From a virus, in IMG/VR virus record IMGVR_UViG_3300025120_013163, positions 1 to 53,008 of that record: DNA of 53,008 nt, one strand, 5' to 3'. Every line of letters starts with the position of its first letter. The stretch's first letter is position 1. Below the pieces are notes generated by a model. The model was not told where the DNA came from, made no database searches, and was given only the letters and a program-made list of their open reading frames with translations. Positions 2,660 to 34,674 of the stretch are shown piece after piece. Both the position numbers and the translations under genes were made by a program.

Positions 2660-2660
2660 T

Positions 2661-8965: not shown

Positions 8966-9300
8966 ATTTAGAAGCATTATTTAACGCTGTTATAGTAAAA
9001 CCAATTGAAGCTGAAGAAACTAAGTATGGTTCAATTGTAGTTCCTGATATGGGAAAAGATGTAAATGAACATGGAGAAATAATAGCAGTAGGACCTGGAC
9101 TGCATACAATTTCAGGTACATTTATTGAAACTATAAGCAAAGTTGGAGATATAGTAATATTACCAACTCAAGGATTTACAAAGCTACAACATGATGGAGA
9201 GGATTATTTAGTTGGTCCTGAAAATCAAATTTTAGCTAAAGTAAAAAAAGAAGTAGATTTAGAAAAAATATTAGAAGAAACTGAACCATTAAAAGAATAA
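8962..9300 (+). CDS. groS: GroES-like co-chaperonin
   Basis: 112 residues, close to cellular GroES (about 97) and T4 gp31 (111). Landmarks are the N-terminal strand NAVIVKPIEAEET, the block YGSIVVPDMG, GEIIAVGPG and the late VGDIVILPTQGFTKLQHDGEDYLV, all in GroES order. The mobile-loop region is shorter and divergent. An acidic tail (KKEVDLEKILEETEPLKE) extends beyond the usual end. It would cap the GroEL encoded 2 nt downstream, for folding of phage proteins such as capsid. Confidence 0.92.
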   Translation: MNLEALFNAVIVKPIEAEETKYGSIVVPDMGKDVNEHGEIIAVGPGLHTISGTFIETISKVGDIVILPTQGFTKLQHDGEDYLVGPENQILAKVKKEVDLEKILEETEPLKE

Positions 9301-9302
9301 AA

Positions 9303-16040: not shown

Positions 16041-16042
16041 AT

Positions 16043-17374: not shown

Positions 17375-17397
17375 CAGATAAATAAAAAAGTATAAAT

Positions 17398-17865: not shown

Positions 17866-17872
17866 ATTAAAA

Positions 17873-18505: not shown

Positions 18506-19319
18506 AATAGGATTTACTTGTAGTTCATTTGATCTTTTACATCCTGGACATATTTTAATGCTACAGGATTGTAAAAACCATTGTGATTATTTAATTGTAG
18601 GATTGCAAATAGATCCTACTATAGATAGGCCTACTTCTAAAAATAAACCTATTCAAACTTTAGAAGAAAGACTGTTAATGGTTAGTTCAATAAAATATGT
18701 TGATGAAGTTAGAACATATTCAACAGAAAAGGATTTAATTAAATTAATTAATAACATAAATCCAGATATTAGAATAATGGGGTCAGATTGGAAAGTTTTA
18801 AAAGATAAAATAACGGGATTTGATTTAGCTCCTATATATTTTCATAATAGAAATCACAACCATTCAACTACTAACTTAAGAAAAAGAATAGTAGACAACC
18901 AAAACCCCAAATTAAATGCTCCTGAAATACATGATAGTGTAAAAATTATAAATCCTGTAAATTTATATGGATGTAAAATAGGAAAAGATAGTTTTATAGG
19001 TCCCTTTGTTGAAATACAAAATAATGTAAAAATAGGAAATAATACAAGAATAAGTAGTCATTCATTTGTTTGTAGTAGTGTTGAAATTGGTAACAATTGT
19101 TTTATAGCCCATGGGGTTATGTTTGTAAATGATAACTTTACCGAAGAAAAGGGAAAATGGATTGAGAGAAAAACTAAAATAGGCAATAATGTAAGAATAG
19201 GAAGTAATGCAACTATTTTACCTATAAAAATAGGAAATAATGTAGTAATAGGAGCTGGTGCGGTTGTAACCAAAGATGTACCAGATAATTCAATAGTAAA
19301 AGGAAACCCAGCAAAGTAA
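18492..19319 (+). CDS. cytidylyltransferase fused to a hexapeptide-repeat acyltransferase
   Basis: 275 residues in two parts. Residues 1-130 are a TagD-like nucleotidyltransferase with CSSFDLLHPGHILML (HPGH 17-20), while the usual late motif ISTTxxxxRI is represented by HSTTNLRKRI. Residues about 145-275 are a left-handed beta-helix with many IGNN/IGxx hexads, ending GAGAVVTKDVPDNSIVKGNPAK as in sugar O- or N-acetyltransferases. One chain could thus activate and acylate a sugar or polyol phosphate. The combination is unusual. It is within the glycan operon, overlapping the GT2 gene. Confidence 0.85.
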   Translation: MKHSKIGFTCSSFDLLHPGHILMLQDCKNHCDYLIVGLQIDPTIDRPTSKNKPIQTLEERLLMVSSIKYVDEVRTYSTEKDLIKLINNINPDIRIMGSDWKVLKDKITGFDLAPIYFHNRNHNHSTTNLRKRIVDNQNPKLNAPEIHDSVKIINPVNLYGCKIGKDSFIGPFVEIQNNVKIGNNTRISSHSFVCSSVEIGNNCFIAHGVMFVNDNFTEEKGKWIERKTKIGNNVRIGSNATILPIKIGNNVVIGAGAVVTKDVPDNSIVKGNPAK

Positions 19320-20101
19320 TGAAAATATCAATAATACATAATTTATATAAAATTAATCCTCATATAAATGAGTCTATACAATATAATATCCTAGCATTAG
19401 AAGAAGCTGAGATTGATTATCAATATATTCTTTTTAATGATAAAGGTGATAAAGATATATATAATGATATTAAAAATCTTTTAAATGATAAGGTTGAATA
19501 CCATTATAGCAAAGTAAATTATGGAATGGGAAAATGTAGTGGTGGTTGGATGGGTGCAATTCCATTATTAAAAGGAGATATTATACATAATACAGGACAA
19601 GATGATGTTTTTGTAGTTGATTTTTATAAAAAGGTAAAAGAAGTTTTCTCAAACCCAGAAATAATGTTCTTTAGTTGTAATGGTATAAGAACTGATGAAA
19701 ATTTAAACCAACAGGGACCTATGATTTCTCCCCAATTTCAACCCGATTATTCAAATCCCTTAGATAGATTTAAAGAGTGGTTTGGTGTACAAAATAATGA
19801 AGTAACAAGAGCTAATAATAATTTATTAGCTCCTGGAACTTTATATCGAAAAGAAATTCATAATATAATAGGTCTCCCTTCACTTGATGAATTTTTTGGG
19901 GTTGGAGATTTTGAATATTGGGCACGAATGTTATTTTTTGGGATTAAAGGGTATTATGAACCGACTCCTTTATGGTTATATAGAATATCAGACCATTCAA
20001 TAAGCCATAGTGAAAAAAGTAAAAATAAGGACCACAGACCTCCTTATTTACAAAAAATAAAAGAAAAATATATAAAACTATGGAAAGAAAAAATGCAATA
20101 A
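19319..20101 (+). CDS. GT2-like glycosyltransferase
   Basis: 260 residues with a GT-A style start (MKISIIHNLYKINPHINESI), a central DIIHNTGQDDVF where a DXD-like QDD occurs, and a C-terminal region LDEFFGVGDFEYWARMLFFGIKGYY typical of GT2 substrate-binding helices. It shares its first base with the last base of the preceding stop codon and overlaps the epimerase gene. Donor unknown. Confidence 0.75.
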   Translation: MKISIIHNLYKINPHINESIQYNILALEEAEIDYQYILFNDKGDKDIYNDIKNLLNDKVEYHYSKVNYGMGKCSGGWMGAIPLLKGDIIHNTGQDDVFVVDFYKKVKEVFSNPEIMFFSCNGIRTDENLNQQGPMISPQFQPDYSNPLDRFKEWFGVQNNEVTRANNNLLAPGTLYRKEIHNIIGLPSLDEFFGVGDFEYWARMLFFGIKGYYEPTPLWLYRISDHSISHSEKSKNKDHRPPYLQKIKEKYIKLWKEKMQ

Positions 20102-21009
20102 TAAGTGGGGGAGCAGGTTTTATAGGAGGACATCTATCCTTAAGATTACTTAAAGAAGGTTTTAATAAAGTTTATATAATAGATAATTTAGTAAGAACTA
20201 ATAGTTTAAGAAATATATCTAAAGATAAAAAAATTGAGTTTATTTATGGTGATGTTTGTAATTTTGATTTTACTAAATTAAATAATGTAACTCATTTTTT
20301 TCACTTAGCAGCAACTAGAATTAATAGGTGTGCTACTTATAACAAAGAAGGACATGATTATATAGCATCTGGAGGGTTTAATGTAGTTAATTATTGTGCT
20401 AAAAATAATATTAAATTATTCTTTTCTAGTACAGCTAGTGTATATAATAAACCCAAACGTCAACCTATACAAGAAGATGACCCTTGTACTCCTCATACAA
20501 TATATGGAGCTGGAAAATATTATACAGAAAATTTAATTCGTAGTTATGATAATATGGTAGGTTTAGATTATACTATTAATAGATTTTTTAGTGTATATGG
20601 GGTAGGAATGGATTGTGAAGGAGCATATACTGAAGTAATATTTAATTGGTTAAATAATATAAAAAATAATAATAAAAATATAAAAGTATTTGGGAATCCG
20701 GATGAAAAAATATTAGATTTAGTTTATGTTAATGATGTTATTGATGCTATTATATTATCAACATTTAACTCTAATAAAGAAGTATTTAATGTGTCTACTC
20801 AAAATGGAGTAACATTAACAGAATTAATCAGTACAATTGAAGATGTAACTAATACTAAATTAAATATTGAAATAGTTCCTGAAAATAGAACAGATATAGA
20901 AAATAAAAGAGTTGGAGATACAACAAAATTAAAAAAACTAGGATGGGGTTCTAAATATAACCTTAAAGATGGGATTATTAATACTAATAAGTGGATAAAT
21001 AAAAAATAA
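20080..21009 (+). CDS. NAD-dependent epimerase/dehydratase (extended SDR)
   Basis: 309 residues. The Rossmann motif GGAGFIGG is at the N-terminus, the catalytic serine region is FFSSTASVY, and the YxxxK motif is YGAGK. FFSVYG and LDLVYVNDV are typical of nucleotide-sugar epimerases (GalE/RmlB/WbgU class). It would change the configuration or oxidation of an NDP-sugar feeding the adjacent GTs. It overlaps the previous gene by 22 nt. Confidence 0.9.
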   Translation: MERKNAIISGGAGFIGGHLSLRLLKEGFNKVYIIDNLVRTNSLRNISKDKKIEFIYGDVCNFDFTKLNNVTHFFHLAATRINRCATYNKEGHDYIASGGFNVVNYCAKNNIKLFFSSTASVYNKPKRQPIQEDDPCTPHTIYGAGKYYTENLIRSYDNMVGLDYTINRFFSVYGVGMDCEGAYTEVIFNWLNNIKNNNKNIKVFGNPDEKILDLVYVNDVIDAIILSTFNSNKEVFNVSTQNGVTLTELISTIEDVTNTKLNIEIVPENRTDIENKRVGDTTKLKKLGWGSKYNLKDGIINTNKWINKK

Positions 21010-21010
21010 A

Positions 21011-21673
21011 ATGGAATACCAATACGTACAATATAATAAAAACCAAATAAAAAAATACGGAGACGAAAAAAAATTAAATGAATTAATAGATTTAGTAAGT
21101 GAATGTTCTACTCTTAAAGAATATAAAAAATTTCGTTCTAAGTATAAAGATAACAATTATGCTGGTGAAGGAGCGAGCAATTGGAATAACTCTAATTCTT
21201 TATGTACCCCGAAAGAATGGTTAGCAATATATAAATATGCAGATGAATATGGGAATTGGTCATCTAAAACTCAAATTTGTGGGCCTGCTTGGAAAGATAA
21301 AACAGTATTAGATTTTGGTGCTGGATCTGGTACCCCTTGGAGTGGAGATATTGATGGGGTAGACTTATATTTACTTGAAGCTAATTTAGGCATATCATCT
21401 CTTCTTAAAAAAAGATATGAATCTTTTCCAAATGTAAAAATAATAACAACTTTTAAAGAATTACCAAAAGATATTAAATTTGACTATATCTATTCAAAAA
21501 ATGTTTTGGAACATGTAAGATATTTAAATGAACATTTAGAAATATTATATTATTTAGGCAATGAAAATTGTGATTATTGGTTACAAATAGATCCAAATCC
21601 TATGGGAGGTCATGTTATGAATCTCCATGAGGATACTAAAATTAAAACTCAATTTTGGAATGATAAAAAATAA
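21011..21673 (+). CDS. class I SAM-dependent methyltransferase
   Basis: 220 residues. A long N-terminal helical part precedes motif I, VLDFGAGSGTPW, then LYLLEAN (acidic residue after strand 2) and FDYIYSKNVLEHV (motif IV region). In this setting it may methylate a sugar or sugar nucleotide, but the target is not visible. The 3' end overlaps the next gene by 14 nt. Confidence 0.8.
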   Translation: MEYQYVQYNKNQIKKYGDEKKLNELIDLVSECSTLKEYKKFRSKYKDNNYAGEGASNWNNSNSLCTPKEWLAIYKYADEYGNWSSKTQICGPAWKDKTVLDFGAGSGTPWSGDIDGVDLYLLEANLGISSLLKKRYESFPNVKIITTFKELPKDIKFDYIYSKNVLEHVRYLNEHLEILYYLGNENCDYWLQIDPNPMGGHVMNLHEDTKIKTQFWNDKK

Positions 21674-22103
21674 TTGGGATAAATTAAATAATGAAGTAGG
21701 TCCTTGGAATGAGTTTAGTATAGTAAGAGGAAAAGAATATATTAAATTTGGTAATGATATATGGGTTGGATATTTTTGTTTAGTTGATGGTTCAGGGGGA
21801 TTAGAAATAGGAAATAAAGTTACACTATCTTCTGGGGTTCATGTTTACACTCATGACTCTAGTAAATTTAGAGCTTACAATTGGGAAAAAGATTCTAAAA
21901 AAGGATCTCACATAAGAATGGCACCTGTTAAAATTGGTAATAATGTACAAATAGGAGCTAATAGTATTGTAACTAAAGGAGTAACTATCGGTAGCAATGT
22001 AATAATAGGAGCTTTAACATTAGTAAATAAGGATATCCCAGATAATAGTTTTGTTACTGGTAATCCTATGGTTATAAAAAAATTAAAAAATGATAATATC
22101 TAA
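21660..22103 (+). CDS. hexapeptide-repeat acetyltransferase
   Basis: 147 residues of left-handed beta-helix: IKFGNDIWVG, LEIGNKVTLSSGVHVYTHD (with the catalytic-type histidine), VKIGNNVQIGANSIV, VTIGSNVIIGALTLVNKDIPDNSFVTGNP. This is the CatB/WbbJ type of sugar O- or N-acetyltransferase and probably acts as a trimer. Start ATG 21660 overlaps the methyltransferase gene. It could acetylate an amino sugar made by the nearby aminotransferases. Confidence 0.88.
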   Translation: MIKNNWDKLNNEVGPWNEFSIVRGKEYIKFGNDIWVGYFCLVDGSGGLEIGNKVTLSSGVHVYTHDSSKFRAYNWEKDSKKGSHIRMAPVKIGNNVQIGANSIVTKGVTIGSNVIIGALTLVNKDIPDNSFVTGNPMVIKKLKNDNI

Positions 22104-23016
22104 ATGCCCCCTAAGAGTTTCATTAGTAGGAGGATCTACTGATTTACAGTCTTTTATTGATGAATATGGGTATGGACAAGTAATTAGTTTTCCTATATCT
22201 TTATACACATATATTTCTTTATCTAAAAGATATGATAAAAAATATGTAATAAATTATACTAAAAGAGAAAATGTAATTGATCCAAATAAGATAAAAAATG
22301 ATATAGCAAGGGAATTAATTAAATATTTTAAATTACCTCCATTAACAATGGCTTTTAATGCAGATATCCCATCAACTGGTAGTGGTTTAGCAGCATCTTC
22401 CTCATATATGGTTGCTGCAGTTGCTGCTGCATGTGAATTTAAAGGATTAAAATGGTCACAAGCTAAAATATGTAAAATAGCTCATGAAATAGAATTAAAT
22501 TTTAATCCCTTAACGGGTTATCAAGATACTTATGGTTGTGGTTTACCATCACCTAAACTAATGATTTTTAATGGGGATGTTGATGTAAAATTTATTGAAT
22601 TACCTTTATCTCATAAGGGAATATATTTACATAATACAGAAGTAAAAAGATCGTCAACTAATATTCTTAAAACTATTAATATTAAAAAAAGTTATCCTTT
22701 ATTAAAATTAGTAGATAAAACTTATAAATCACTTGATAATTCCAAAGAATTCTTTAAATTATTAAGTGATTCTTGGAACATTAAAAAACAAACATCAAAT
22801 GAAATATTAAATAATAAAGAATTATCTACTTTAGATAATATCTTAGATAAAGATAATATAATAATATTTCATAAATTATGTGGTGCTGGAGGTGGTGGGT
22901 ATTTTTTAATAATAACAGATGAATTAGAATACCCTGATGATTATTATCAAGTAAAATATGCAGATAAAATAAAAATTAATATAGACAATAAAGGAGTAAC
23001 AGTATGGGAGATATAA
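22090..23016 (+). CDS. GHMP-family sugar kinase (heptose kinase HddA-like)
   Basis: 308 residues. The start MIISKCPLRVSLVGGSTDL and the ATP motif PSTGSGLAASSSYMVAAVAA are those of HddA/FGGY-unrelated GHMP kinases that phosphorylate D-glycero-D-manno-heptose 7-phosphate at C1. The late motif LCGAGGGGYFLI is also present. An SIS-domain isomerase (24994) and a SIS-HAD fusion (42277) in the same phage fit a heptose route. Other sugars such as fucose remain possible. Confidence 0.85.
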   Translation: MIISKCPLRVSLVGGSTDLQSFIDEYGYGQVISFPISLYTYISLSKRYDKKYVINYTKRENVIDPNKIKNDIARELIKYFKLPPLTMAFNADIPSTGSGLAASSSYMVAAVAAACEFKGLKWSQAKICKIAHEIELNFNPLTGYQDTYGCGLPSPKLMIFNGDVDVKFIELPLSHKGIYLHNTEVKRSSTNILKTINIKKSYPLLKLVDKTYKSLDNSKEFFKLLSDSWNIKKQTSNEILNNKELSTLDNILDKDNIIIFHKLCGAGGGGYFLIITDELEYPDDYYQVKYADKIKINIDNKGVTVWEI

Positions 23017-23858
23017 AAATATTATTAATAGGTTGTGGTTATTGGGGGAAAAATTGGTATAAAACAATTAAAAATTCTAAATACGATTTAGTGGGTGTTG
23101 TTGATCCTTTACCTGTTATAGACGTTGATATACCGTTGTTTAATGATATAAATGACGTAAACATTAAATATACTCATGTTATTTTAGCAGTAAATGCTAA
23201 ACTTCATAGTAAAATTGTAAATCAATTAAATATCCCACAAGAAAATATTTTAGTAGAAAAACCATGTGGGATTGATATAAAAGATGCAGAATTAATTAAA
23301 GATGCATTCCCTGGATATATATTTTTATATTCAGATGAATACCAGTATATTAAAAATAATTTAAATAAAATAGGAAAACCTCAATATTGGAAAAGTATTA
23401 GAGCATCAATGGGTCCTAAAGTTAGATCTGATGTCTCTATTTTAGAAGATTATATGATTCACGATTTATATATTTATAGAGATTTATTTGGTGAGTGCAA
23501 AATAGGACAACAATCTAGTTTTAGTGAATTTAACCTACCTATAAAAAGTAGCTCTTTATATCTAGAATTAGATGGAAAAATACCTGGTCATTTCTATTCT
23601 TCTTGGAATTATCCTATAAAGGAAAGAAAAATTATTATAAAAGGAGACAAAGGAAGCTTTATATGGGAAAATGATGATTTATATTATGATAATACCCACT
23701 ATGTTGATAATGAAGTTATTGAAGGTACTTGTAAAAAAATCACAACTACTTCCAAGTCAAATTTGGATCTTGAATTAGAATTTTTTATATTGGGGGAAAA
23801 ACCAAATGTAAATATTTTAAATATTTGGTCATTAATAAATGTTATAAATAAAAAATAA
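23004..23858 (+). CDS. Gfo/Idh/MocA-family oxidoreductase
   Basis: 284 residues. The N-terminal Rossmann domain begins KILLIGCGYWGKNWY, and the family motif EKPCG follows ILV at about residue 87. The C-terminal part has the beta-sheet domain (KIIIKGDKGSFIWEND). These enzymes oxidise or reduce NDP-sugars with NAD(P). Here it probably provides a keto-sugar to the aminotransferase encoded next. It is shorter than the usual 330-350 residues. Confidence 0.88.
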   Translation: MGDIKILLIGCGYWGKNWYKTIKNSKYDLVGVVDPLPVIDVDIPLFNDINDVNIKYTHVILAVNAKLHSKIVNQLNIPQENILVEKPCGIDIKDAELIKDAFPGYIFLYSDEYQYIKNNLNKIGKPQYWKSIRASMGPKVRSDVSILEDYMIHDLYIYRDLFGECKIGQQSSFSEFNLPIKSSSLYLELDGKIPGHFYSSWNYPIKERKIIIKGDKGSFIWENDDLYYDNTHYVDNEVIEGTCKKITTTSKSNLDLELEFFILGEKPNVNILNIWSLINVINKK

Positions 23859-23861
23859 ATT

Positions 23862-25007
23862 ATGAAAATACCATTAGGAAAACCTTATCTTAAAGAAGAA
23901 GCAGCATTATCAAAAATTAAAGAAGTATTAGAATCAAGATGGATTAGTGGTGGTCCTCGTATAAAGGAATTTGAAGATTGTATTCAAGAATATAATAATG
24001 ATCCTGAGGGATATTATGTAGCAGTATCTAATGGGACTGTAGCTATTGAAATGGGTTTATTAGCTATTAATGGAGGTAAAAGATTAGAATCAACTGATGA
24101 AGTTATAGTACCTTCTTGGAGTTGGGTTGCAAGTGGATTTGCAGTTAATAATGCAGGTGGAACCCCAGTTTGGTGTGATGTAAATGAATATGGTGTTCCT
24201 TATATAGAAGATATAAAATCTAGAATTACACCTAATACTAAAGCCATTATTTTAGTTCATCAAATGGGTATTCCTTGTGATTTAGATGCTTTTAAGGAGT
24301 TAGATATTCCTATTATAGAAGACTCAGCATGTGCTTTGGGTAGTGAGTATAAAGGTAAAAAAATTGGAAATAGTAATAATATAGTAACATATTCATTTCA
24401 AGCTAGAAAATGTTTAACAACAGGTGAAGGTGGAATGATAGTTGTAAGAGATAAAAATATAGCAGAATGGTTAAAATCTTATAGAGCATTTGGTACTAAT
24501 ATTTCTCCTTTAGCTAGAGATAAAGCTAAATTTTTACTTAAAGAACAATTTGATTTTATAGGTAACAATTTTAAAATGGCTGATATTCCTTGTGCTTTAG
24601 GAATATCTCAAATAAGATTTTTTGATGAAGAAATAGAATTAAGAGATGAAGCGGGTGAATATTATAATTATTTAATTAATGAACAACTACGAGGTTATGG
24701 AGTTTCTATTGGTAATGTTGTTCCTGATTATTGCACAAGATATAATTGGCAAAATTATCATTTAATTTTAGATGATAAATACAACAGAGATCAAGTTGTA
24801 GATTTATTAAGAAAAAGAAATATTGGTTGTAAGTGGGATATACAAGCAATCCATGTTGAACCTGCTTATAATGATAATACAGAATTACCCCAAACTATGA
24901 AGTATCATAATAATGGTATGTGGTTAGGATTTTATGCTGAAATAACAAGAGAAGAACAAGAATATGTTATTAGCAACTTAAAAGAGGTACTAGATGAACT
25001 TAAATAA
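23862..25007 (+). CDS. DegT/DnrJ/EryC1/StrS aminotransferase
   Basis: 381 residues, full length for this PLP enzyme family of sugar aminotransferases. Visible motifs are VAVSNGTVAIEM, the phosphate/aspartate block IIEDSACALGSEYKG and the PLP lysine in SFQARKCLTTGEGGM. It likely transfers an amino group onto a 3- or 4-keto sugar nucleotide, following either the Gfo/Idh/MocA enzyme or the Gmd product (as in perosamine synthesis). Overlaps the SIS gene by 14 nt. Confidence 0.93.
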   Translation: MKIPLGKPYLKEEAALSKIKEVLESRWISGGPRIKEFEDCIQEYNNDPEGYYVAVSNGTVAIEMGLLAINGGKRLESTDEVIVPSWSWVASGFAVNNAGGTPVWCDVNEYGVPYIEDIKSRITPNTKAIILVHQMGIPCDLDAFKELDIPIIEDSACALGSEYKGKKIGNSNNIVTYSFQARKCLTTGEGGMIVVRDKNIAEWLKSYRAFGTNISPLARDKAKFLLKEQFDFIGNNFKMADIPCALGISQIRFFDEEIELRDEAGEYYNYLINEQLRGYGVSIGNVVPDYCTRYNWQNYHLILDDKYNRDQVVDLLRKRNIGCKWDIQAIHVEPAYNDNTELPQTMKYHNNGMWLGFYAEITREEQEYVISNLKEVLDELK

Positions 25008-25485
25008 ATTACGATTAGAAATAAATAAGGTAACAGAAGATGTTAAAAATAGTTTATGGTATTGGATAAATAATCATAAAGAAATTATTATAATAGGAAA
25101 TGGGGGTAGTAATTCAATTGCATCTCATATATCTCAAGATTATACTAAAGTTTTAGAAAAAAAATCTTATAGTTTTTCCGATCCTTCAAGATTAACTTGT
25201 TATATAAATGATTATGGTAGAGATAAGGCATATGTAGAATTCTTAGATGATTTTACTGAAAAAGATACATTAGTTATTTTAATTTCATCATCAGGAAATT
25301 CTATGAATATAGTTAATGCCGCTAAATACTGTGAAAATAATAATATAACATATTTAGCTTTAACTGGTTTTAATAGTAATAATAAATTAAATAATATGAA
25401 CCCTATGTGGAGATGGCATGTTGACTCAAGTGATTATGGTGTGGTAGAATGTGTTCATCAAATAGTATTACACTCAATATTATAA
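24994..25485 (+). CDS. SIS-domain sugar-phosphate isomerase (GmhA-like)
   Basis: 163 residues, one SIS domain: IIIIGNGGSNSIASHISQDY, then LVILISSSGNSMNIVNAAKYC and VVECVHQIVLHSIL. These match phosphoheptose isomerase GmhA, which makes heptose 7-phosphate from sedoheptulose 7-phosphate, though slightly shorter than the usual 190. A kinase of HddA type lies three genes upstream. Its stop shares one base with the next start. Confidence 0.82.
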   Translation: MNLNKLRLEINKVTEDVKNSLWYWINNHKEIIIIGNGGSNSIASHISQDYTKVLEKKSYSFSDPSRLTCYINDYGRDKAYVEFLDDFTEKDTLVILISSSGNSMNIVNAAKYCENNNITYLALTGFNSNNKLNNMNPMWRWHVDSSDYGVVECVHQIVLHSIL

Positions 25486-25901
25486 TGGAAAAAATATATT
25501 CAAAAGTAGATGGCAGACTATTACATATTGTAAATAGACTATCAGAAATAAAAGGTAGAACTGAAATTGTACCTGAAAATAATTTTATTCAATGTGCTAC
25601 TTTAGAAATGGAAAAAGGTAAAACATTCCCACCACATAAACATATTACAAAAGATAGACATTATAAAGAACAAATTGCTCAAGAATCTTGGGTTGTAATT
25701 AAAGGAAAGGTACAATGTATATTTTATGATATAGATGATAAAATAATAGCAGAACCTATTTTAGAAGCTGGGGATGCTAGTTATACTTTATATGGAGGTC
25801 ATACCTATAAAATATTAGAAGATAATACTATTGTATATGAATATAAAACAGGTCCTTATGAAGGACAAAAATTAGATAAGACTTTTATTAATGAAAAATA
25901 A
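25485..25901 (+). CDS. cupin-domain protein
   Basis: 138 residues. The metal-binding cupin motif is seen as FPPHKH with a following Glu in KEQ, and the second motif as GGHTYKILEDNT. Strands such as WVVIKGKVQCIFYDID support the double-stranded beta-helix. In sugar clusters such proteins can be isomerases, epimerases or oxygenases of sugar intermediates, so the exact role is open. The ATG at 25485 is favoured over an upstream one that lies far inside the SIS gene. Confidence 0.75.
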   Translation: MEKIYSKVDGRLLHIVNRLSEIKGRTEIVPENNFIQCATLEMEKGKTFPPHKHITKDRHYKEQIAQESWVVIKGKVQCIFYDIDDKIIAEPILEAGDASYTLYGGHTYKILEDNTIVYEYKTGPYEGQKLDKTFINEK

Positions 25902-26841
25902 AAAAGTAGTATTATCTTTAAGACACAGACACAATAAAAATTTAAATGATTATAGTTCAGCTATAATTTATTGGTATGGGGTTTTAGATAGATTAGGATA
26001 TGAAGTGTTATATTATGATTATGATGATTATAATATTGATGATTTATACAATACTGTAAAAGAATTTAATGCTGATTTTTTTATTCATACTAATTATTTA
26101 GTAGGAGTTCATAAAGAATTTGATAGAATAAGAGAATTGTGTAAAGTATTTCTTTTATCAAGTGATGCTTATAGATTTCATGATTCTAATTTAAAACATT
26201 GGATACCTTTTGTGGATGGGATTATTACATTTGAAGGGATAAAAGAGTGGTATTTAAGAGATGGTTTACCTGAGGAAGGATTTTTAAAAATGAAATGGGG
26301 ATTCAACCCTAATACTATGTGTACTGAAGATGTAAATAATAAATCTATTAATGTTCAACATTATGGAGGATTACATGGTGATAGAAGATCCAAAATATCC
26401 CAGTTTAATCAGTTAGGTTGTAGTATTACTCAAGAAGAATTTTTAACTCATGATGAAATGAAAAAAAATTTAGCAAAATCAAAATATTCATTATGTTTTA
26501 GTTCTAATGCTATTGGAACTAGAAATGAATTAAAAGGTAGAGTAATTGAAATCCCCTCTCAAGCTGTTTTGTTAACAGAACCAGCTCCTGATTTAGATAC
26601 TTATTTTAATGAAGATGAAATCATTACATTTAATAGTGTAGAAGAAGCTGTAAATAAAATAAATTCTATTACAGATAAGGAATATAATAATATTTTAAGA
26701 AAAGGACAAAAAGCATTATGGAATAGAAATACTGTATATCATGAATGGAATAAAATTTTACCACTAATGGATCCAGATTATAAACCAATAGATCCAATAG
26801 ATATAATTAAAAAATACCACAATGAGTACTATAAAGTTTAG
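25891..26841 (+). CDS. glycosyltransferase-like protein (CgeB / GT1-like)
   Basis: 316 residues. The N-terminal half has alternating strands and helices with YSSAIIYWYGVLDRLGYEVLYYDYDD. The C-terminal half ends with KGRVIEIPSQAVLLTEPAPDLDTYFNEDEIITF, the donor-site pattern of CgeB-like GT-B enzymes (R-x-E-P/I...Y-F...E). Overlaps the neighbours on both sides, so it is part of the glycan operon. Confidence 0.75.
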   Translation: MKNKKVVLSLRHRHNKNLNDYSSAIIYWYGVLDRLGYEVLYYDYDDYNIDDLYNTVKEFNADFFIHTNYLVGVHKEFDRIRELCKVFLLSSDAYRFHDSNLKHWIPFVDGIITFEGIKEWYLRDGLPEEGFLKMKWGFNPNTMCTEDVNNKSINVQHYGGLHGDRRSKISQFNQLGCSITQEEFLTHDEMKKNLAKSKYSLCFSSNAIGTRNELKGRVIEIPSQAVLLTEPAPDLDTYFNEDEIITFNSVEEAVNKINSITDKEYNNILRKGQKALWNRNTVYHEWNKILPLMDPDYKPIDPIDIIKKYHNEYYKV

Positions 26842-27244
26842 ACCTGTAGAGGAAAAAGATTGGAAGGATGTTTATTATCTTTTAAATCAACTAACAGAAT
26901 TATTAGGAACAATTAGAGATAAAAAAGTATGTTGGAATAGATTTGTATCAAATAATTCTAATAATGCTATTGTAGGTTTACATAATGATCAAATTATTGC
27001 TTATGGGAGTATAGTTATAGAAAATAAAATAAGAGGAGAATTAGCAGGTCATATAGAAGATATAGTTGTAGATAAAAAATTTAGAGGAAAAAATATTGGT
27101 GTAAAACTTATTAAAGAATTAGTAAAAATTGGTTATAGTAAAGAATGTTATAGAATAACATTAACTTGTGATCAATCATTAATTAATTTTTATTATAAAA
27201 ATGGTTTTAAAGTTAATAACATTGCAATGAAAAAACACTTATAA
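26822..27244 (+). CDS. GNAT N-acetyltransferase
   Basis: 140 residues. The GNAT acetyl-CoA block HIEDIVVDKKFRGKNIGVKLIKELV (R/Q-x-x-G-x-G/A) and the final strand-helix FYYKNGFKV are clear. It is of the size and style of glucosamine-phosphate N-acetyltransferases. A likely substrate is an amino sugar from the operon. Confidence 0.88.
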   Translation: MSTIKFRPVEEKDWKDVYYLLNQLTELLGTIRDKKVCWNRFVSNNSNNAIVGLHNDQIIAYGSIVIENKIRGELAGHIEDIVVDKKFRGKNIGVKLIKELVKIGYSKECYRITLTCDQSLINFYYKNGFKVNNIAMKKHL

Positions 27245-28089
27245 TGAATTACGGAAGAATACATTTTGAAGGAACTCCTAGTGCTGGGTTTTTTAGTAAT
27301 TATTTTGGTGTAATGTCTACTATGTTAGATTTACATCATAATCATAAATTATTCCCCTATGTAGATAATTCGAATACTTGGTGGAATCCAACATTTAATT
27401 TTGAAACCTTAACAGCAGAAGATTTAAATATTAATCCTTGGGATTGGTGGTTTCAACAAGATAAACCTCTTAATATTAAAGAATGTCCTAATATAGAAGT
27501 TAATTATAGTAATATTTCTCATGTACCCAATCAATTTCATCAAAACCCATCATTACCCTATGCTAGAGAAATGGATTTAAAATATTGTAAATTACAATCT
27601 TATATTACACTTGAAATAAATACATTATTTGAAAGATATTTTGCAAATAAAAATATTTTAGGGGTTATGGCACGAGGTACTGAAATGTTAAAATTCCATA
27701 AAGAGTATCCAAAAGTAAATTCTAATGTGTGGGGGCATATTATCAAAGATTTTTTAAATGACCATCCTGATATTGATAATATATTTTTAGTTACAGATGA
27801 TAACGAAATATTAAACAATATTTTAGAAATAAACCCCCAAACTATTTACTTAAAAGATTTCTTTAGGAAAACAACTCAAACAGATGAAGAAATTAATAAT
27901 AAATATAAACCTTGGTGGTTAACATCTCCATCTAATGATCTTAACCATAGAAAAAGATTAGGTGAAGAATGTATAATTCAAGCAAAACTTCTCTCTAAAT
28001 GTCAATCTCTTTTAGGAACATATTCAGGGTTTACTAATGCAGCTCAATTTTTTAATCATGAGGGTTTTAAAAGTTTTTATCTTATATAA
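27244..28089 (+). CDS. putative fucosyltransferase-like glycosyltransferase
   Basis: 281 residues. The centre has ILGVMARGTEMLKFHKEYPKV, which resembles the HxRGTD motif of alpha-fucosyltransferases and NodZ/O-fucosyltransferase relatives. It is followed by IFLVTDDNEILNNI and a late LLGTYSGFTNAAQF, both common in that superfamily. The N-terminal FFSNYFGVMSTM also fits. The GDP-mannose dehydratase encoded two genes later could supply GDP-linked 6-deoxysugars. Assignment is by motif only. Confidence 0.6.
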   Translation: MNYGRIHFEGTPSAGFFSNYFGVMSTMLDLHHNHKLFPYVDNSNTWWNPTFNFETLTAEDLNINPWDWWFQQDKPLNIKECPNIEVNYSNISHVPNQFHQNPSLPYAREMDLKYCKLQSYITLEINTLFERYFANKNILGVMARGTEMLKFHKEYPKVNSNVWGHIIKDFLNDHPDIDNIFLVTDDNEILNNILEINPQTIYLKDFFRKTTQTDEEINNKYKPWWLTSPSNDLNHRKRLGEECIIQAKLLSKCQSLLGTYSGFTNAAQFFNHEGFKSFYLI

Positions 28090-28712
28090 TGAGTTTTGAG
28101 AGTATAAAAATATTTGAAAATAAAATAGCTGAATTTTTTGGTTCATCTTATGCTGTAGCAGTAGATTGTTGTACTCATGGGATTGAATTATGTTTAAGAC
28201 ATGAACATATAGGTTCAATTAAAGTACCTAAAAGAACTTACATATCAGTACCATTTTTAGCATCAAAGTTAAATATGACTTTTGAATTTAAGGATGAAGA
28301 TTGGAAAGATTATTATTATTTAACTGATAATATTATTGATGCAGCTGTATTATGGAAAAGGAATAGCTATATCCCTGGAACTTTCATGAATATCAGTTTT
28401 CAATTTAGAAAACACTTGGCTTTGGGTAGAGGGGGTTGTATATTGACGGATAATAAAGAAGCAGCAATTAAATTAAAGAAAATGTCATATGATGGGAGAC
28501 ATCCAGATATACCTTGGAGAGAACAAAATATAGAAATGGTAGGATATCACTATTATATGACCCCAGAAACTGCTGAATTAGGTTTAGAAAAATTACCAAA
28601 AGCAATTAAAACTAAACCAATACAATGGACAATAAATGATTGGCCTGATGTATCTAAAATGAAAGTATTTAATAGTGTAGAGGAAATAGATCCCTACTTA
28701 CAAACAAAATAA
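28089..28712 (+). CDS. compact DegT/DnrJ-like aminotransferase, lacking the C-terminal domain
   Basis: 207 residues, compared with about 370 for the family. It keeps the start of the large domain (ENKIAEFFGSSYAVAVDCCTHGIEL), the Asp region (NIIDAAVLW) and the PLP lysine block SFQFRKHLALGRGGCIL. It then ends soon after YYMTPETAELGLEKL. The small C-terminal domain is missing without any sign of frameshift. It could be a working minimal enzyme, a partner of the 23862 aminotransferase, or a decaying copy. Confidence 0.78.
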   Translation: MSFESIKIFENKIAEFFGSSYAVAVDCCTHGIELCLRHEHIGSIKVPKRTYISVPFLASKLNMTFEFKDEDWKDYYYLTDNIIDAAVLWKRNSYIPGTFMNISFQFRKHLALGRGGCILTDNKEAAIKLKKMSYDGRHPDIPWREQNIEMVGYHYYMTPETAELGLEKLPKAIKTKPIQWTINDWPDVSKMKVFNSVEEIDPYLQTK

Positions 28713-28715
28713 ACA

Positions 28716-29687
28716 ATGAAAAAAGCATTTATTACAGGAATTAATGGGCAAGACGGCAGTTATTTAGCTGAATATTTATTAGAATTAGGATATGAGGTAC
28801 ATGGTACAGTTAGAAGAAATTCAACTCCTGAAAACCAAGATACAAGAATAGAAAAAATACATAATAAAATTAATACTTATTATGCTGATTTACTAGATCA
28901 AGGTAGTATTGAAAGGTTATTAGATGACATACAGCCTGATGAAATATATAATATCGCTGCCCAATCCCACGTAAGAATTAGTTTTGACATTCCCCAATTT
29001 ACAGTACAAACAAATGCCTTAGGTGTTCTTAATATATTAGAAGCATATAGACGTTCCTGTCCTAAAGCAAAATTTTACCAAGCAAGTAGTTCTGAAATGT
29101 TTGGTTTGTCTGTTGATAATGATAATTTTCAAAGAGAAACTACCACAATGAACCCAGTATCACCTTATGGATGTTCTAAAGTATTTGGTTATAATATTGT
29201 AAGAAATTATAGACGTGCTTATGGGTTACATGCTACAAACGGTATTTTATTTAATCATGAATCACCTAGAAGAGGTAGTAATTTTGTAACTAATAAAGTA
29301 GTAAAGGCAGCAGTAAGGATTAAATTAGGTTTACAAGATAAATTAGAATTAGGTAATATGGATTCTTATAGAGATTGGGGTCATTCATATGATTATGTTA
29401 GGGCAATGCACTTAATGGTGCAACATAATAAACCTGAGGATTGGGTAGTATCAACTATGGAAACACATTCAGTAAGAGAAATGTGTGAATTAGTATTTAA
29501 CTATTTAAATTTAGACTATAAAGATTATGTAACACAAAATCCTAAATTTTTAAGACCAGAAGAATTACCTTATTTAAAAGGAGATTCTACAAAAATTAGA
29601 ACAGAATTAGGTTGGAAACCCACATATACTTTTAAAAGTATGATGGAAGAAATGACTGATCATTGGTTAAAATACTATAAAAAATGA
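28716..29687 (+). CDS. gmd: GDP-mannose 4,6-dehydratase
   Basis: 323 residues. The start KAFITGINGQDGSYLAEYLLELGYEVHG is diagnostic of Gmd, with VRRNSTPENQDTRI, then SSSEMFG (active-site Ser/Glu), YGCSK (YxxxK) and NHESPRRGSNFVT. It converts GDP-mannose to GDP-4-keto-6-deoxymannose, the branch point to fucose, rhamnose and perosamine. DegT-type aminotransferases and acetyltransferases nearby favour an N-acyl-perosamine-like product; the fucosyltransferase-like gene favours fucose. Confidence 0.97.
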   Translation: MKKAFITGINGQDGSYLAEYLLELGYEVHGTVRRNSTPENQDTRIEKIHNKINTYYADLLDQGSIERLLDDIQPDEIYNIAAQSHVRISFDIPQFTVQTNALGVLNILEAYRRSCPKAKFYQASSSEMFGLSVDNDNFQRETTTMNPVSPYGCSKVFGYNIVRNYRRAYGLHATNGILFNHESPRRGSNFVTNKVVKAAVRIKLGLQDKLELGNMDSYRDWGHSYDYVRAMHLMVQHNKPEDWVVSTMETHSVREMCELVFNYLNLDYKDYVTQNPKFLRPEELPYLKGDSTKIRTELGWKPTYTFKSMMEEMTDHWLKYYKK

Positions 29688-30577
29688 AAATAGCATTCTT
29701 TACAGAAGGACAATATCAAGGTAAAATATCTAGGAATAATCCTAATATGCGAACAGATTTAGCATGGATATGTTCATTAGAAGCAGATCATTGGAGTATA
29801 AACCAACAACCTGACCAACAATATGACTTAGGTATTGTTATCATTCCAAAGAAAAACCCACAATTTGATTTAAATAAATTAAAACAATATTGTAGTAAAA
29901 TAGCTGTAATGCAAGAAGGTCCTAATTGGTACTGGCAAGATTATCCATTACAACAACAAATATGGTATTTTAATACTATACAAGAAGCTGACTTTATGTT
30001 TGTTCATAATATATTAGATAAAAAATATTATGAGGGTTTAACAGGTAAAGAATGTAAAATTTTACCTAGTTTGATGATTGAAGATTCAATTAATAATCTA
30101 CCACAAGTTGAAAGAAAAGACATTATTATAGGTGGTAATTTTTGCAGTTGGTACGGTGGATTTGATTCTTACATAATAGCACAGGAAGCAGATTGTCCCA
30201 TTTATATCCCAAGTATGGGTAGAAAAATTGAAGGTGAAGAACAAATGCCTAATTTAAATCATTTACCTTATATGAATTGGGTAGAATGGATTAAATCACT
30301 TAATAATTTTAAATATGGTATTCATTTAATGCGTACACATGCTGCAGGTACATTTGCTTTAAATTGTGCTTATTTAGGCATACCTTGTATTGGGTATGAA
30401 GGTTTAGACACACAAGAAATATGCCATCCAGACTTAACTGTAAAAATGGGAGATTTATCTACAGCAAAAGAAAAATTAAATAGGTTAAAAACAGACAAAG
30501 ATTTTTATGATTTATGTTCTGAATTAGCAAAATTTGGATATGAAAATAATTATAATGAAAAAAAATTTAAGATATGA
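29684..30577 (+). CDS. glycosyltransferase-like protein (GT-B fold, unassigned)
   Basis: 297 residues. It has MKIAFFTEGQYQGKIS at the start, strands like DLGIVIIPKK and KIAVMQEGPNWYWQD, and a late HLMRTHAAGTFALNCAYLGIPCIGYEGLDTQ reminiscent of the donor site of GT-B enzymes. The family is not certain. It overlaps gmd by 4 nt and the next GT2 gene by 4 nt, which supports a glycan role. Confidence 0.6.
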   Translation: MKIAFFTEGQYQGKISRNNPNMRTDLAWICSLEADHWSINQQPDQQYDLGIVIIPKKNPQFDLNKLKQYCSKIAVMQEGPNWYWQDYPLQQQIWYFNTIQEADFMFVHNILDKKYYEGLTGKECKILPSLMIEDSINNLPQVERKDIIIGGNFCSWYGGFDSYIIAQEADCPIYIPSMGRKIEGEEQMPNLNHLPYMNWVEWIKSLNNFKYGIHLMRTHAAGTFALNCAYLGIPCIGYEGLDTQEICHPDLTVKMGDLSTAKEKLNRLKTDKDFYDLCSELAKFGYENNYNEKKFKI

Positions 30578-31749
30578 AAATAAGTTTAATACAACCTGGT
30601 AGAAATAATCTTAAGTACCTTAAATGGTCTTACGATTCAATAAGAAAAAATCAAGGCAACCATGAAGTACAAATTTGTGTAGCAGATGATGCTAGTACAG
30701 ATGGTACATGGGATTGGTGTCAAGCAATGATGGCTGAAGATGGTGCATTTGATGCAATTAGAAATGAAGGCCCAGAGCGATTAGGTCACACAATTTTATA
30801 TGACAGATTAGTTAATGAAGTAGCTGAACATGATATTTGTATGATTTATCATGCAGACATGTATTTAATGCCTGGTGCGTTAGATCAAATTGAACACAAG
30901 TTAAAAGATAAAACAATTGTATCTTTAACTCGTATTGAACCACCTTTACACCCTGATGGACCTGAAAAAATGTTAATGGACTTTGGTGTTGAACCTGAAG
31001 AATTTAAAGAAGAAGAATTATTAGAATGGTTTAAAGATGTTCAATTACAACAATCAACTAAAATAACTGAAGGCATATTTGCACCTTGGGCATTTTATAA
31101 GTCAGATTTTCAAGAAATAGGTGGACATGATCCTTTATACGCACCACAATCTAAAGAAGATAGTGATATATTTAATCGTTTTCAATTAAACGGAATCAAA
31201 TTTGTACAAACATGGGGTGGATGTGTTTATCATATGACTTGTAGAGGTAGTAGAAGAAATACAGTTGATAAAGCTAAAAACATATATGAAGATTCTCCAG
31301 AATGGTTAGCACAAAACAAAAGATCATCTCGTAATTTTATTCGTAAATGGGGTCATTTTGTTAAACATGATAGTTTAATGAAACCTATTATACCCCCTAA
31401 ATATGATATAGGGATTATACTTAATAATAAAAATATAAATTTGCTAAACAATTTAGAACCCTGGTGTAATACTATATATACTAACTGCAATATCCAGGAT
31501 TATATTAAAGTTGAACAACAAAACACAATTATGGATTTATATGAAAGAGTAAAACCATATGATAATGAAAAAAACAACAATATTTTAATTACTATTGATA
31601 ATAATTTTAATGAACAAGATATGCAATATTTATCTCAATTATCTGAAATATTAGAAGATAATGGAGAAATTGGAAAATTTGAATTAGGTAATTTAAAAAT
31701 AGATATTATTGAAATAAAAAATTATGTTAATGAATTAATTAAGTTGTAA
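30574..31749 (+). CDS. family 2 glycosyltransferase with C-terminal extension
   Basis: 391 residues. The GT2 domain begins MKISLIQPGRNNLKYLKWSYDSIRK with VCVADDASTDGTWDW-type strand 4 residues, an HADMYL metal site in place of DXD and GHDPLYAPQSKEDSDIFNRF. From about residue 270 there is a separate region with strands (YDIGIILNNKNINLLNNLEPW) that does not belong to the GT2 core. It is the last gene of the first glycan cassette. Confidence 0.88.
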   Translation: MKISLIQPGRNNLKYLKWSYDSIRKNQGNHEVQICVADDASTDGTWDWCQAMMAEDGAFDAIRNEGPERLGHTILYDRLVNEVAEHDICMIYHADMYLMPGALDQIEHKLKDKTIVSLTRIEPPLHPDGPEKMLMDFGVEPEEFKEEELLEWFKDVQLQQSTKITEGIFAPWAFYKSDFQEIGGHDPLYAPQSKEDSDIFNRFQLNGIKFVQTWGGCVYHMTCRGSRRNTVDKAKNIYEDSPEWLAQNKRSSRNFIRKWGHFVKHDSLMKPIIPPKYDIGIILNNKNINLLNNLEPWCNTIYTNCNIQDYIKVEQQNTIMDLYERVKPYDNEKNNNILITIDNNFNEQDMQYLSQLSEILEDNGEIGKFELGNLKIDIIEIKNYVNELIKL

Positions 31750-31784: not shown

Positions 31785-32102
31785 ATGGAAGAAAAAACTA
31801 CGAAAAGAAAAATTACAAGTATAGAGATAAGTTATAGTAATAAAAGAGAACTAAAAGAATTATCTAATAAAGAAGAATTTAGAGATGTTATAATGAGAGA
31901 TTCTTTTAAAGCAATTAAAGAAGCAATTAAAAAAGATAAAACAACAGTAGAATTATTTAATATAGTAAATTTATCTATAATAATAAAACTATCCTACTTA
32001 TACTACCCATCAGCATTAAAAAAAATAAGTAATTATTTTGAGGAGTATGAAGAATATGAAAAATGTGCTGAAATAAAACAATTAATTAATAAAATAAAAT
32101 AA
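31785..32102 (+). CDS. unknown helical protein with EYEKC C-terminal motif
   Basis: 105 residues. The end, YFEEYEEYEKCAEIKQLINKI, resembles the end of the protein at 43955 (YYTEGEEYEKCSKLVKLKNKL). It is like the UvrB/UvrC-type helical hairpin found in many small phage proteins. The rest is helical and Lys/Glu-rich. It precedes the Omp28-like gene by 4 nt. Confidence 0.65.
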   Translation: MEEKTTKRKITSIEISYSNKRELKELSNKEEFRDVIMRDSFKAIKEAIKKDKTTVELFNIVNLSIIIKLSYLYYPSALKKISNYFEEYEEYEKCAEIKQLINKIK

Positions 32103-32106: not shown

Positions 32107-33927
32107 ATGAAAAAGCTAATATTAGCTGTAATAGTCTTGCTTGGACTACAAATACAAGCACAAACCTTTGTAAGTACAACTCCTGAAAACAGAAATGTTA
32201 TACTTGAAGAATTTACAGGTATATATTGTACATATTGTCCTGATGGACATTTAATAGCTCAAGGTTTACATGATGCTAATCCAATGGATGTTTTCTTAAT
32301 TAATATACACACAGGTGGATATGCTAATCCAAATGGACCAAGTGATCCTGATTTTAACTGTTTATTTGGAGCTGCAATTGCAGCTAATTCGGGTTTAGCA
32401 GGTTATCCAGCTGGTACTATTAATAGAGCAACATTTAGTGGAATATCTCCTCAAGGTAGTCCAGGTACTACAGCTTTAAGTAGAGGTGATTGGGTAGCAG
32501 CATCAGCTGATATTATGTCACAACTATCTTATGTTAATGTTGGTGTTCAAGCAAGTTACGATATGTCTACTGGTATTTTAACAGTTAATACGGAAACATA
32601 TTACACACAAACTACTACAAACATAAATGTGTTACACGTAGCAGTAGTACAAAATAACGTACCAGGTCCTCAAACAGGTGCTTTATCATATAACCCAAAT
32701 GCAATAATAACAGGACCTTGGAACCCAACTTATAACCATCAACATATGTTTAGACATTTAATGGATGGTGCTAATGGTTTAGAATTTAATGTTACAACTG
32801 CGGGTACATTTGTTCCTAATACACATACATGGCAAATGCCTACTAATTTAGCTAGTGGTCAATCAACTACTGGATTTTTTCCAGATTTAGACCCTACAAA
32901 TTTAGATGTTGTAGCTTATATAACTGAAGGTCCAGGTGAAATTATTACTGGTTTTCAAGCTAATGTAGCACCTATATTTCCAAATGCATATGACGCTAAT
33001 GTAACTAACTCAACAGCTGAAAGTGTTGTTTGTGCTAGTGAAACAGATATAACTATTACATTTAGAAATTATGGTAATCAAAATTTAACATCATTAGATT
33101 TAACTTATGATATTAATGGTAGTACTTATCCTGCTATTAATTGGACTGGTAATTTAGCTTCAGGTGCTGAAGAAACATTAACCCTTAATAGTGTTACTTT
33201 TACACCACAAGCTAATAATACAGTTACTTGGGTAGCTAGTAATCCTAATGGACAAATAGATCAAAATACAACTAATAATTCATTAATTTCTACATTTACA
33301 CATTTTGATTTAAATGGTGATGTAGTAAACGGAATATCACCTGGAACTATTAATGTAGATATTTTAACTGATGGTTATGGAAGTGAAACAACATGGGAAG
33401 TTATTGATGAAAGTGGTATAGTAGTTGGTTCTGGTGGTCCTTATAATAACAATACTCAATATAATGAAACTGCTTATGTAAATAGTAATGAGTGTTATAC
33501 TTTTAATTTATATGATTCATACGGTGATGGAATGTGTTGCGCAAATGGTGTAGGTGAAGTAGTAGTAATGGATCAAAATGGTAATACTATTTTTGAAGGT
33601 GATCCTGTTAATTTACAAAATTTTACAGAATTAGGTGTGTATTTTTCTACAGGTATGGGAAGTAGTAATTCATGGGAATGTACACCATTTGGATGTGCTG
33701 ACGTAGGTATTGGTCTTGGAACGTATGCTACGCAATTAGATTGTGAATCTGATATAGCTAATGCAAATACACCATGTTTTGTTATAACAAGTATAAACGA
33801 AATAGAATTATCTACTAAAATTAATAAAATTTATGATGTATTAGGCAGAGAATATAAATCTAAAGTTGGAGAATTAGAAAATGGTTTGTATATTATCGAT
33901 AACATTAAAGTAATAATTAATAAATAA
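32107..33927 (+). CDS. Omp28-like secreted protein with probable T9SS sorting domain
   Basis: 606 residues. A signal peptide (KKLILAVIVLLGLQIQAQ, about 1-19) is followed by an Omp28-type domain that opens with VILEEFTGIYCTYCPDGH (CXXC at 41-44). Then come Ig-like/CARDB-like beta segments (about 300-390), a Cys-rich block with NLYDSYGDGMCC (about 470-490) and WECTPFGCADVG. The last 45 residues, with INKIYDVLGREYKSKVGELENGLYI, match the style of type A sorting domains recognised by the type IX secretion system of Bacteroidota. The protein should be exported and perhaps attached to the outer surface of the infected cell. It resembles a host gene captured by the phage. Confidence 0.85.
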   Translation: MKKLILAVIVLLGLQIQAQTFVSTTPENRNVILEEFTGIYCTYCPDGHLIAQGLHDANPMDVFLINIHTGGYANPNGPSDPDFNCLFGAAIAANSGLAGYPAGTINRATFSGISPQGSPGTTALSRGDWVAASADIMSQLSYVNVGVQASYDMSTGILTVNTETYYTQTTTNINVLHVAVVQNNVPGPQTGALSYNPNAIITGPWNPTYNHQHMFRHLMDGANGLEFNVTTAGTFVPNTHTWQMPTNLASGQSTTGFFPDLDPTNLDVVAYITEGPGEIITGFQANVAPIFPNAYDANVTNSTAESVVCASETDITITFRNYGNQNLTSLDLTYDINGSTYPAINWTGNLASGAEETLTLNSVTFTPQANNTVTWVASNPNGQIDQNTTNNSLISTFTHFDLNGDVVNGISPGTINVDILTDGYGSETTWEVIDESGIVVGSGGPYNNNTQYNETAYVNSNECYTFNLYDSYGDGMCCANGVGEVVVMDQNGNTIFEGDPVNLQNFTELGVYFSTGMGSSNSWECTPFGCADVGIGLGTYATQLDCESDIANANTPCFVITSINEIELSTKINKIYDVLGREYKSKVGELENGLYIIDNIKVIINK

Positions 33928-33931: not shown

Positions 33932-34084
33932 ATGCAAAAATATGGAATGTTCTTAAAGTCAGGCAATGAAATAATTCATAGGACAAGTGCAGATAGTTTA
34001 ACAACAGCTTATAATTATTTTGCTAAATCAAAAGATATGTCTTTAACAGCATTTAAAAAAATATTTATTGTAATAAAATTATAA
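33932..34084 (+). CDS. small basic protein, unknown
   Basis: 50 residues (start MQKYGMFLKSGNEIIHRTSA, end KKIFIVIKL), 4 nt after the Omp28-like gene. It has a helical centre, DSLTTAYNYFAKSK, that looks like phage proteins with a KSGN...A...F pattern. No family is recognised. Compact spacing supports it being real. Confidence 0.55.
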   Translation: MQKYGMFLKSGNEIIHRTSADSLTTAYNYFAKSKDMSLTAFKKIFIVIKL

Positions 34085-34087
34085 ACT

Positions 34088-34270
34088 ATGGATTTTCAAG
34101 GAAAAAGTAAAAAAAGCTATGAAGCTAGCACTAAGGCAGTAGGATACAGTATTATATCGATGATAATATTGTTAATAGGGATGACTTTATTTAGTAGTTG
34201 TGCTACTACTAAAGTAGATAAATGTTGTAAAAATTCAGATAAAATAATAGAACATTACGAAACTAAGTAA
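34088..34270 (+). CDS. small membrane or lipoprotein-like protein
   Basis: 60 residues. After 17 polar residues there is a hydrophobic segment (GYSIISMIILLIGMTLF) ending in SSCATT, which resembles a lipobox (LFSSC), then a CC pair. It may be a small lipoprotein or a single-pass protein. As a lysozyme-like protein is encoded at 35755, an outer-membrane spanin role is conceivable but unproven. Confidence 0.6.
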   Translation: MDFQGKSKKSYEASTKAVGYSIISMIILLIGMTLFSSCATTKVDKCCKNSDKIIEHYETK

Positions 34271-34272
34271 TA

Positions 34273-34674
34273 ATGGGTGAGTTATTTGAAGGCGAGGATG
34301 ACATCAGGGGTTTATTTAAACAGATGTTAGGAAGTGATATTATTATTAAAGATAATATTAAAGAAAGTGAGGAAAAATTATTTATTTTATTTGTAGAACA
34401 ATTAGAAAAAGCAAAAAACTTAGAAGACAAGGTTATTGATATGGGATTAGACGTTAATCCCTTAGTTAGTCCTCTTTGGATAGTAATAGAAAATATGTTA
34501 AAATTACAATTTGGGTTAGATACGACTAATCTTATTATGTTTTATTTGTATGATAGAATTGGACCTGATGGTAAAATTATCCCACTAGTTGAAGAAGAAT
34601 CAGATAAAAAATTCAAATTAAAAACTCCTAAAGATTTATTTGCATATATTAAGTTTAGATATTCCGATAAATAA
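34273..34674 (+). CDS. unknown phage protein
   Basis: 133 residues, acidic, mostly helical: EEKLFILFVEQLEKAKNLEDKVIDMG, then a hydrophobic PLVSPLWIVIENMLKLQFG. It starts 2 nt after the previous stop. No family is recognised. It ends just before a promoter. Confidence 0.7.
   Translation: MGELFEGEDDIRGLFKQMLGSDIIIKDNIKESEEKLFILFVEQLEKAKNLEDKVIDMGLDVNPLVSPLWIVIENMLKLQFGLDTTNLIMFYLYDRIGPDGKIIPLVEEESDKKFKLKTPKDLFAYIKFRYSDK

Follow-up and report, generated by a model that had tools for sequence, protein, structure and literature searches.

A candidate T9SS cargo protein of the Omp28/HBP35 type encoded by a large phage of marine Flavobacteriales

HBP35 of Porphyromonas gingivalis (PDB 5y1a) carries a thioredoxin motif and a C-terminal domain, is found at the cell surface and has thioredoxin activity in vitro (PMC2907840). 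For the export of GFP, the final 22 residues of its C-terminal domain (motifs D and E) are sufficient (reviewed in PMC10202324), and when its last five residues are removed the surface form is lost (PMC2907840). The phage-encoded protein described here resembles HBP35 in having a signal peptide, a thioredoxin-like CXXC domain, a putative C-terminal export domain and last residues that contain lysine. Where HBP35 carries a complete Ig-like type-A domain, the phage gene product has a compact terminal module, and it contains two beta domains more. With the Omp28 family (PF11551; NF033782) it shares the Omp28 domain, but it has no lipobox and its C-terminal architecture is different. We propose, at a probability of roughly 0.7, that this protein is a host-captured, Omp28/HBP35-like cargo of the type IX system (T9SS) that the infected cell would either release or expose on its surface.

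The gene is located at positions 32107 to 33927 on the plus strand of the window, by which we mean the whole 53,008-base virus record that was analyzed. It is a single unbroken ORF of 606 amino acids, running from ATG to TAA, with homologues on phage contigs and host chromosomes. The original prediction had described it as a phage gene with a signal peptide, an Omp28-type CXXC domain, a Cys-rich DSYGDG-type segment and a C-terminal IYDVLGRE...NGLYI module, and all of these features are present. Residues 1-19, MKKLILAVIVLLGLQIQAQ (32107..32163, plus strand), followed by TF, have the architecture of a signal peptide with cleavage near A18/Q19; here and below, such calls come from our own hydrophobicity rule rather than SignalP. 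The signal sequences of relatives differ, yet they are equivalent, and every relative in which the start is present retains one.

The Omp28/thioredoxin-like domain spans residues 23-248 (32173..32850, plus strand) and contains the motif EEFTGIYCTYCPDGH. It passes the gathering cut-off of PF11551 (37.1 against 34.9 bits, residues 92-248, Pfam) and gives a long partial match to NF033782, lipoprot_Omp28, at 62.6 bits (E 3.1e-17), under the NCBIfam cut-off of 150 bits. Within it lies the thioredoxin-like active-site motif C41-T-Y-C44 (32227..32238, plus strand; context EEFTGIxCxxCPDGH), both cysteines of which are invariant among 16 phage and host relatives. Two beta domains follow on the same strand. 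The first, CARDB-like or Ig-like, covers residues ~297-378 (32995..33240), with a weak CARDB match (E 0.4) and beta strands modeled at a pLDDT of ~80, and the second, taken from the AF2 model, covers residues ~392-515 (33280..33651) and includes YDSYGDGMCCANG at residues ~469-481, a segment conserved in phage copies and close host copies. After a Cys-rich stretch the protein ends in a short sorting-like module at residues ~562-606 (33790..33924, plus strand), whose core, KIYDVLGREYKSKVGELENGLYIIDNIKVIINK, occupies the last ~34 residues (573-606) and follows the pattern KIYDVLGRE...NGLYI..KVIINK.

In the AF2 model, which has a mean pLDDT of 68, the last 90 residues have no confident fold. The fold as a whole is predicted to resemble that of HBP35, which is the best PDB match by structure (Foldseek E 6e-11, 16% identity, TM 0.30/0.55) and also the sole PDB match by sequence (E 0.15). 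Foldseek matches after the first rank were to generic beta-sandwich proteins and were left unused.

Relatives with 56-85% identity occur on ten viral contigs, three of which (L002-L004) are near-identical, so that the independent observations number fewer than ten. A further relative is found on the phage-like contig L026, which belongs to a MAG with the label Pelagibacter, and a shorter Omp28 version of ~330 aa on four contigs (L042-L045). Immediately upstream in the main phage lineage is a small conserved gene (31785..32102, plus strand), common to nine contigs with the window counted. The right neighbours, genes for 50, 60 and 133 aa (33932..34674, plus strand), are likewise shared wherever those contigs extend far enough, and the 60-aa product contains a lipobox-like SSCATT as well as a TM segment. 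A hypervariable glycan-biosynthesis cassette of glycosyltransferases, epimerases and aminotransferases (14607..31749, plus strand; PHROGs), with a gene content that varies from contig to contig, terminates shortly upstream of the cargo gene. The Omp28-like gene thus sits between this cassette and small, HNH and lysis-like genes, away from the tail genes. Its closest long relative, the 84-kb contig G001, encodes a tail sheath, a tail tube, a UvsX-like recombinase, a DnaB helicase and a ribonucleotide reductase. Across the whole gene, dN/dS among the phage copies is 0.18-0.45.

Chromosomal homologues in Flavobacteriales MAGs are up to ~73% identical, a closeness that could point to an assembly chimera or host contamination. 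This explanation is ruled out by synteny, since the same gene with phage neighbours recurs in assemblies from several metagenomes; the structural and replication genes of G001, and the grouping of phage copies apart from hosts with a C-terminus of their own, speak against it as well, leaving it a negligible probability. The Omp28-like gene is a phage gene.

Other parts of the genome deserve a brief description. The window encodes a phage Hsp20, GroES and GroEL set (8172-10940) and a DNA polymerase in the form of two overlapping genes (4342-6021 and 6018-6947), split identically in G001. At 3-3809 are queC, queD, queE and folE-like genes, 63-74% identical to those of Immutovirus immuto, a combination that may possibly serve 7-deazaguanine DNA modification. 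The motif TTTCGTATATT is present in 10 copies on the plus strand, at 3082, 11237, 17837, 34694, 39036, 39229, 40038, 47635, 52379 and 52723, where 0.04 would be expected in the window; it is often preceded by TTTGGATA or a similar sequence and resembles Bacteroidota promoters of the -33/-7 type. Immediately after the Omp28 gene in G006 lies a gene (P0007, L016:7611-8678) for a 356-aa protein that has a signal-peptide-like start and gave no match in Pfam.

We took the host from the nearest homologues. Candidate host genomes encode SprA in 9 of 10 cases and a PorU over the cut-off in 8 of 10, and four of them have 32-60 TIGR04183 matches each. The sprA gene is a T9SS translocon gene. A host homologue lies 2-4 kb from it in four genomes, and in a fifth a partial sprA shares a short contig with the homologue; at the loci read, the intervening genes are ruvA and one more whose product has a sorting-domain-like end. 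In one host family 48 of 52 genomes match, part of them only partially. Among sequences with a complete end, the C-terminus is a long type-A domain in 30/30 host homologues and short in 11/11 phage homologues, counts that overstate independence because the rows are related, so that a Fisher value is no true probability. By the usual test the host homologues qualify as T9SS cargo. One host genome (G263, L191:1840-7041) also encodes a protein of 1733 aa in which an Omp28-like N-terminal part is joined to a long extension that finishes in a type-A-like manner.

The phage C-terminus behaves differently from the original prediction in one respect: TIGR04183, PF18962 and NF033708 matched neither the window protein nor its isolated tail in searches of Pfam and NCBIfam, and TIGR04183 found nothing across the whole window. 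On this profile criterion alone, which that prediction had itself set, the claim that the protein is T9SS cargo of a Bacteroidota phage would fall. It is rescued by the kinship of the module to type-A domains, by the occurrence of the module on host secreted proteins, by the type-A ends of host homologues, several of which lie beside sprA, and by unambiguous type-A proteins in related phages. The cargo assignment and the Bacteroidota host are thus very probably correct, and what did not stand is a sorting domain recognizable at profile level.

A module HMM run over 2537 viral ORFs gave significant matches exclusively at the extreme C-terminus, its best E-value on reversed ORFs was 0.26, and 38 of 40 uncut short-module proteins begin with a signal-peptide-like stretch, compared with 20.8% of all ORFs; together these results argue that the terminal module is not due to chance. 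It caps three body families, namely large Omp28, small Omp28, which is akin to the large protein in the Omp28 domain, and a family of small, Cys-rich proteins of 170 aa with a signal peptide, not related to Omp28 and found on 17 viral contigs. In a predicted model of a 170-aa protein the module appears as a separate small beta unit (pLDDT ~65-75).

Comparison of the module with the type-A domain by hhalign gives a probability of 86.7% over 36 columns. A type-A HMM scores at least 8 bits on 11 of 25 modules (the window module itself has 8.0 bits), compared with 3 of 1719 background C-termini, a somewhat favourable comparison because look-alikes were removed from that background by motif, and 14 of 2000 shuffles. 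By eye, it retains iYD.xGR, G.xYI and, at the terminus, K..xIxK, and the PNP strand is absent. As judged from these alignments, we are dealing with a compact, remote relative of type-A sorting domains, ~30-45 aa in length. Since 22 residues suffice for export in HBP35 and its last five are required, such a compact signal is, by analogy, a plausible T9SS address.

The module is also present in hosts. A 20-row module model, run over 248 genomes from the order, matched 62 at E <= 0.01, with strong matches in fewer; the weak, partial ones are probably type-A domains. A 9-row model had no match in the first four host genomes. At nearly all the strong host loci inspected, the match lies no more than a few residues from the C-terminus; the proteins concerned differ greatly in size, and the neighbours include thyA, dfrA and etf genes, which indicates that some of these loci are chromosomal. 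Across the phylum, none of 396 genomes matched the short module at 1e-6 even though 304 of the 396 have sprA, so the module appears to be a speciality of this host group; the survey shows lineage restriction and provides no positives to correlate with T9SS. A second short terminal type, LFYIYDDGTVEKKIIIE and similar, is common on secreted proteins of hosts (for example at L125, L126 and L140) and ends three phage proteins (L114, L115, L118); the L114 end had no NCBIfam match. If the assignments hold, the compact sorting module escapes all current sorting-domain models (TIGR04183, PF18962, NF033708) in host and phage alike.

In trees, phage sequences fall in two or three separate groups, all with the short end, and phage copies cluster apart from host copies; in the Omp28-domain tree the main phage group is nested among host sequences. 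The copies on L001 and L026 have near-equal bodies (pN 0.03-0.07) but diverged modules (pN 0.40), the pattern expected from module exchange. So the host gene would have been captured repeatedly, or captured and recombined, with the short signal every time.

The same observations bear on whether the module has any role in T9SS. The protein might instead be a periplasmic or outer-membrane-associated thiol-disulfide protein, its CXXC used for envelope disulfide chemistry and its module a vestige. An invariant CXXC, the in vitro activity of HBP35, the lack of a sorting-profile match and the absence from phage lineages of the complete type-A domain seen in hosts would all suit such a protein. A vestige should, however, decay, and this module stays terminal on several unrelated bodies, ends intact host secreted proteins and has been swapped between copies, and the separate phage groups are all short where the host homologues are type-A. 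We therefore consider a vestige unlikely and retain a T9SS address as the preferred explanation of the module.

Related phages encode proteins whose sorting domains are of the conventional kind. P0001 of G001 (L013:10913-13906 = G001:30913-33906) is a 997-aa protein of Cys-rich GCTDPLAFNYDPLANTDNGSC repeats; it has a signal peptide, and its type-A domain is complete (TIGR04183 51.6 bits, cut-off 23; PF18962 50.4 bits). Its relatives occur on 61 viral contigs, and the uncut ones nearly all end in a VYPNPT-type domain, with three ending in the second short type. All 45 type-A phage proteins have a signal-peptide-like start, against the same 20.8% of ORFs by the hydrophobicity rule. Two more signal-peptide proteins of G001 (L013:8821-9909 and L013:19168-19623) resemble outer-membrane beta barrels, the latter with a weak OMP_b-brl match.

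Immutovirus immuto (MW353175), a phage of Flavobacterium sp. LMO8, is the nearest cultured relative that we found. Its protein immuto26A_15 (QQO91694.1; L193:12691-13422 of MW353175.1), encoded in the vicinity of a C-type lectin gene and further genes for signal-peptide proteins, consists of a signal peptide, a cohesin domain and a type-A sorting domain (TIGR04183 44.8 bits, cut-off 23; PF18962 34.6, cut-off 27) and is annotated in the database merely as a 'cohesin domain-containing protein'. This phage and host are a cultured pair, in which the idea of phage type-A cargo can be tested now. Among 50,697 phage records, tblastn returned no match for the window Omp28 protein or the 170-aa family and one trivial repeat match only for P0001, and PHROGs holds no family for the Omp28-like protein.

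Gene order bears on a further explanation, in which the protein is a virion or tail component and its signal peptide is incidental. It is large and beta-rich, as phage adhesins often are. Its gene nevertheless lies outside the tail genes, between the glycan cassette and the small, HNH and lysis-like genes, the P0001 cargo family is located among replication genes, and no relative with a start has lost the signal peptide; a place in the virion is very improbable.

Taken as a T9SS cargo, the protein would have the following history and route. A large contractile-tailed phage of marine Flavobacteriales would have captured a host Omp28/HBP35-like cargo gene, which stands beside sprA in several hosts, and would express it during infection. 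The signal peptide would direct the product through Sec to the periplasm, where folding of both beta domains and of the thioredoxin-like domain with its CXXC is predicted to take place. The host T9SS would then recognize the short module, made up of counterparts of the terminal type-A segments with the remainder of the Ig fold dropped, and carry the protein across the outer membrane. Finally, and speculatively, the anchored or released protein may remodel the infected-cell surface together with the phage glycan cassette. What the phage would gain is a matter of speculation, with receptor masking, superinfection exclusion, adhesion, and hemin or redox functions as candidates; masking or alteration of receptors against competing phages, or a change in adhesion, seems to us the most plausible.

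An alternative to this last step alone, compatible with export by T9SS, is a metabolic one: the surface protein could help the host to bind hemin or particles and so yield more phage. The nearest structure, HBP35, is a hemin-binding cargo needed for growth at low hemin, and hosts largely retain the gene. Hemin-binding residues have, however, not been identified in the phage protein, the fold match is moderate at the identity and TM values given above, and the other phage cargo (Cys-rich repeats, cohesin and 170-aa proteins) has no link to hemin. We consider this function fairly unlikely and continue to favor a change of the cell surface.

More broadly, we lean toward the view that large myophages of Flavobacteriales carry their own set of T9SS effectors, several of them host-derived, comprising the Omp28-like, Cys-rich 170-aa, giant Cys-repeat and cohesin proteins. 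With a repeatedly acquired, compact and exchangeable module on Omp28, this set would reprogram the infected-cell surface or surroundings via the host T9SS. Were this true, T9SS would join the host machines that phages exploit for their own benefit, and phage T9SS cargo would provide a route by which common marine bacteria acquire altered phage receptors, adhesion or gliding. T9SS signals would then include one more class, the compact module, with consequences for the question of the minimal signal that T9SS needs.

In the open-access literature, with most subscription papers outside that scope, we found no prior report of a phage-coded T9SS cargo, and in the same literature none of a tag that is shorter on virus copies than on host copies; the marine Bacteroidota phage literature examined leaves T9SS cargo unmentioned. 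An alternative C-terminal signal, type C (NF033708), is used in Flavobacteriia, and it matched neither the window protein nor the other short-module proteins. The type-A domain (TIGR04183/PF18962) resembles the module in its terminal position, its signal-peptide partners and its alignable iYD.xGR, G.xYI and K..xIxK segments, but it extends over ~72 positions, whereas the module has ~30-45 and lacks the PNP strand, and the profiles miss it. Immuto is like the window phage in its GroEL (57%), its QueE (74%) and the way in which glycan, DnaK-suppressor and HNH genes are similarly ordered; unlike the window phage, it has no Omp28 gene at the matching place. To our knowledge, none of the known surface-altering phage morons uses T9SS. 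These morons, which bring about O-antigen conversion and superinfection exclusion, nonetheless have the outcome that we propose here, a phage-coded change of the host surface, and the window phage would combine such a moron-like role with a glycan cassette of its own.
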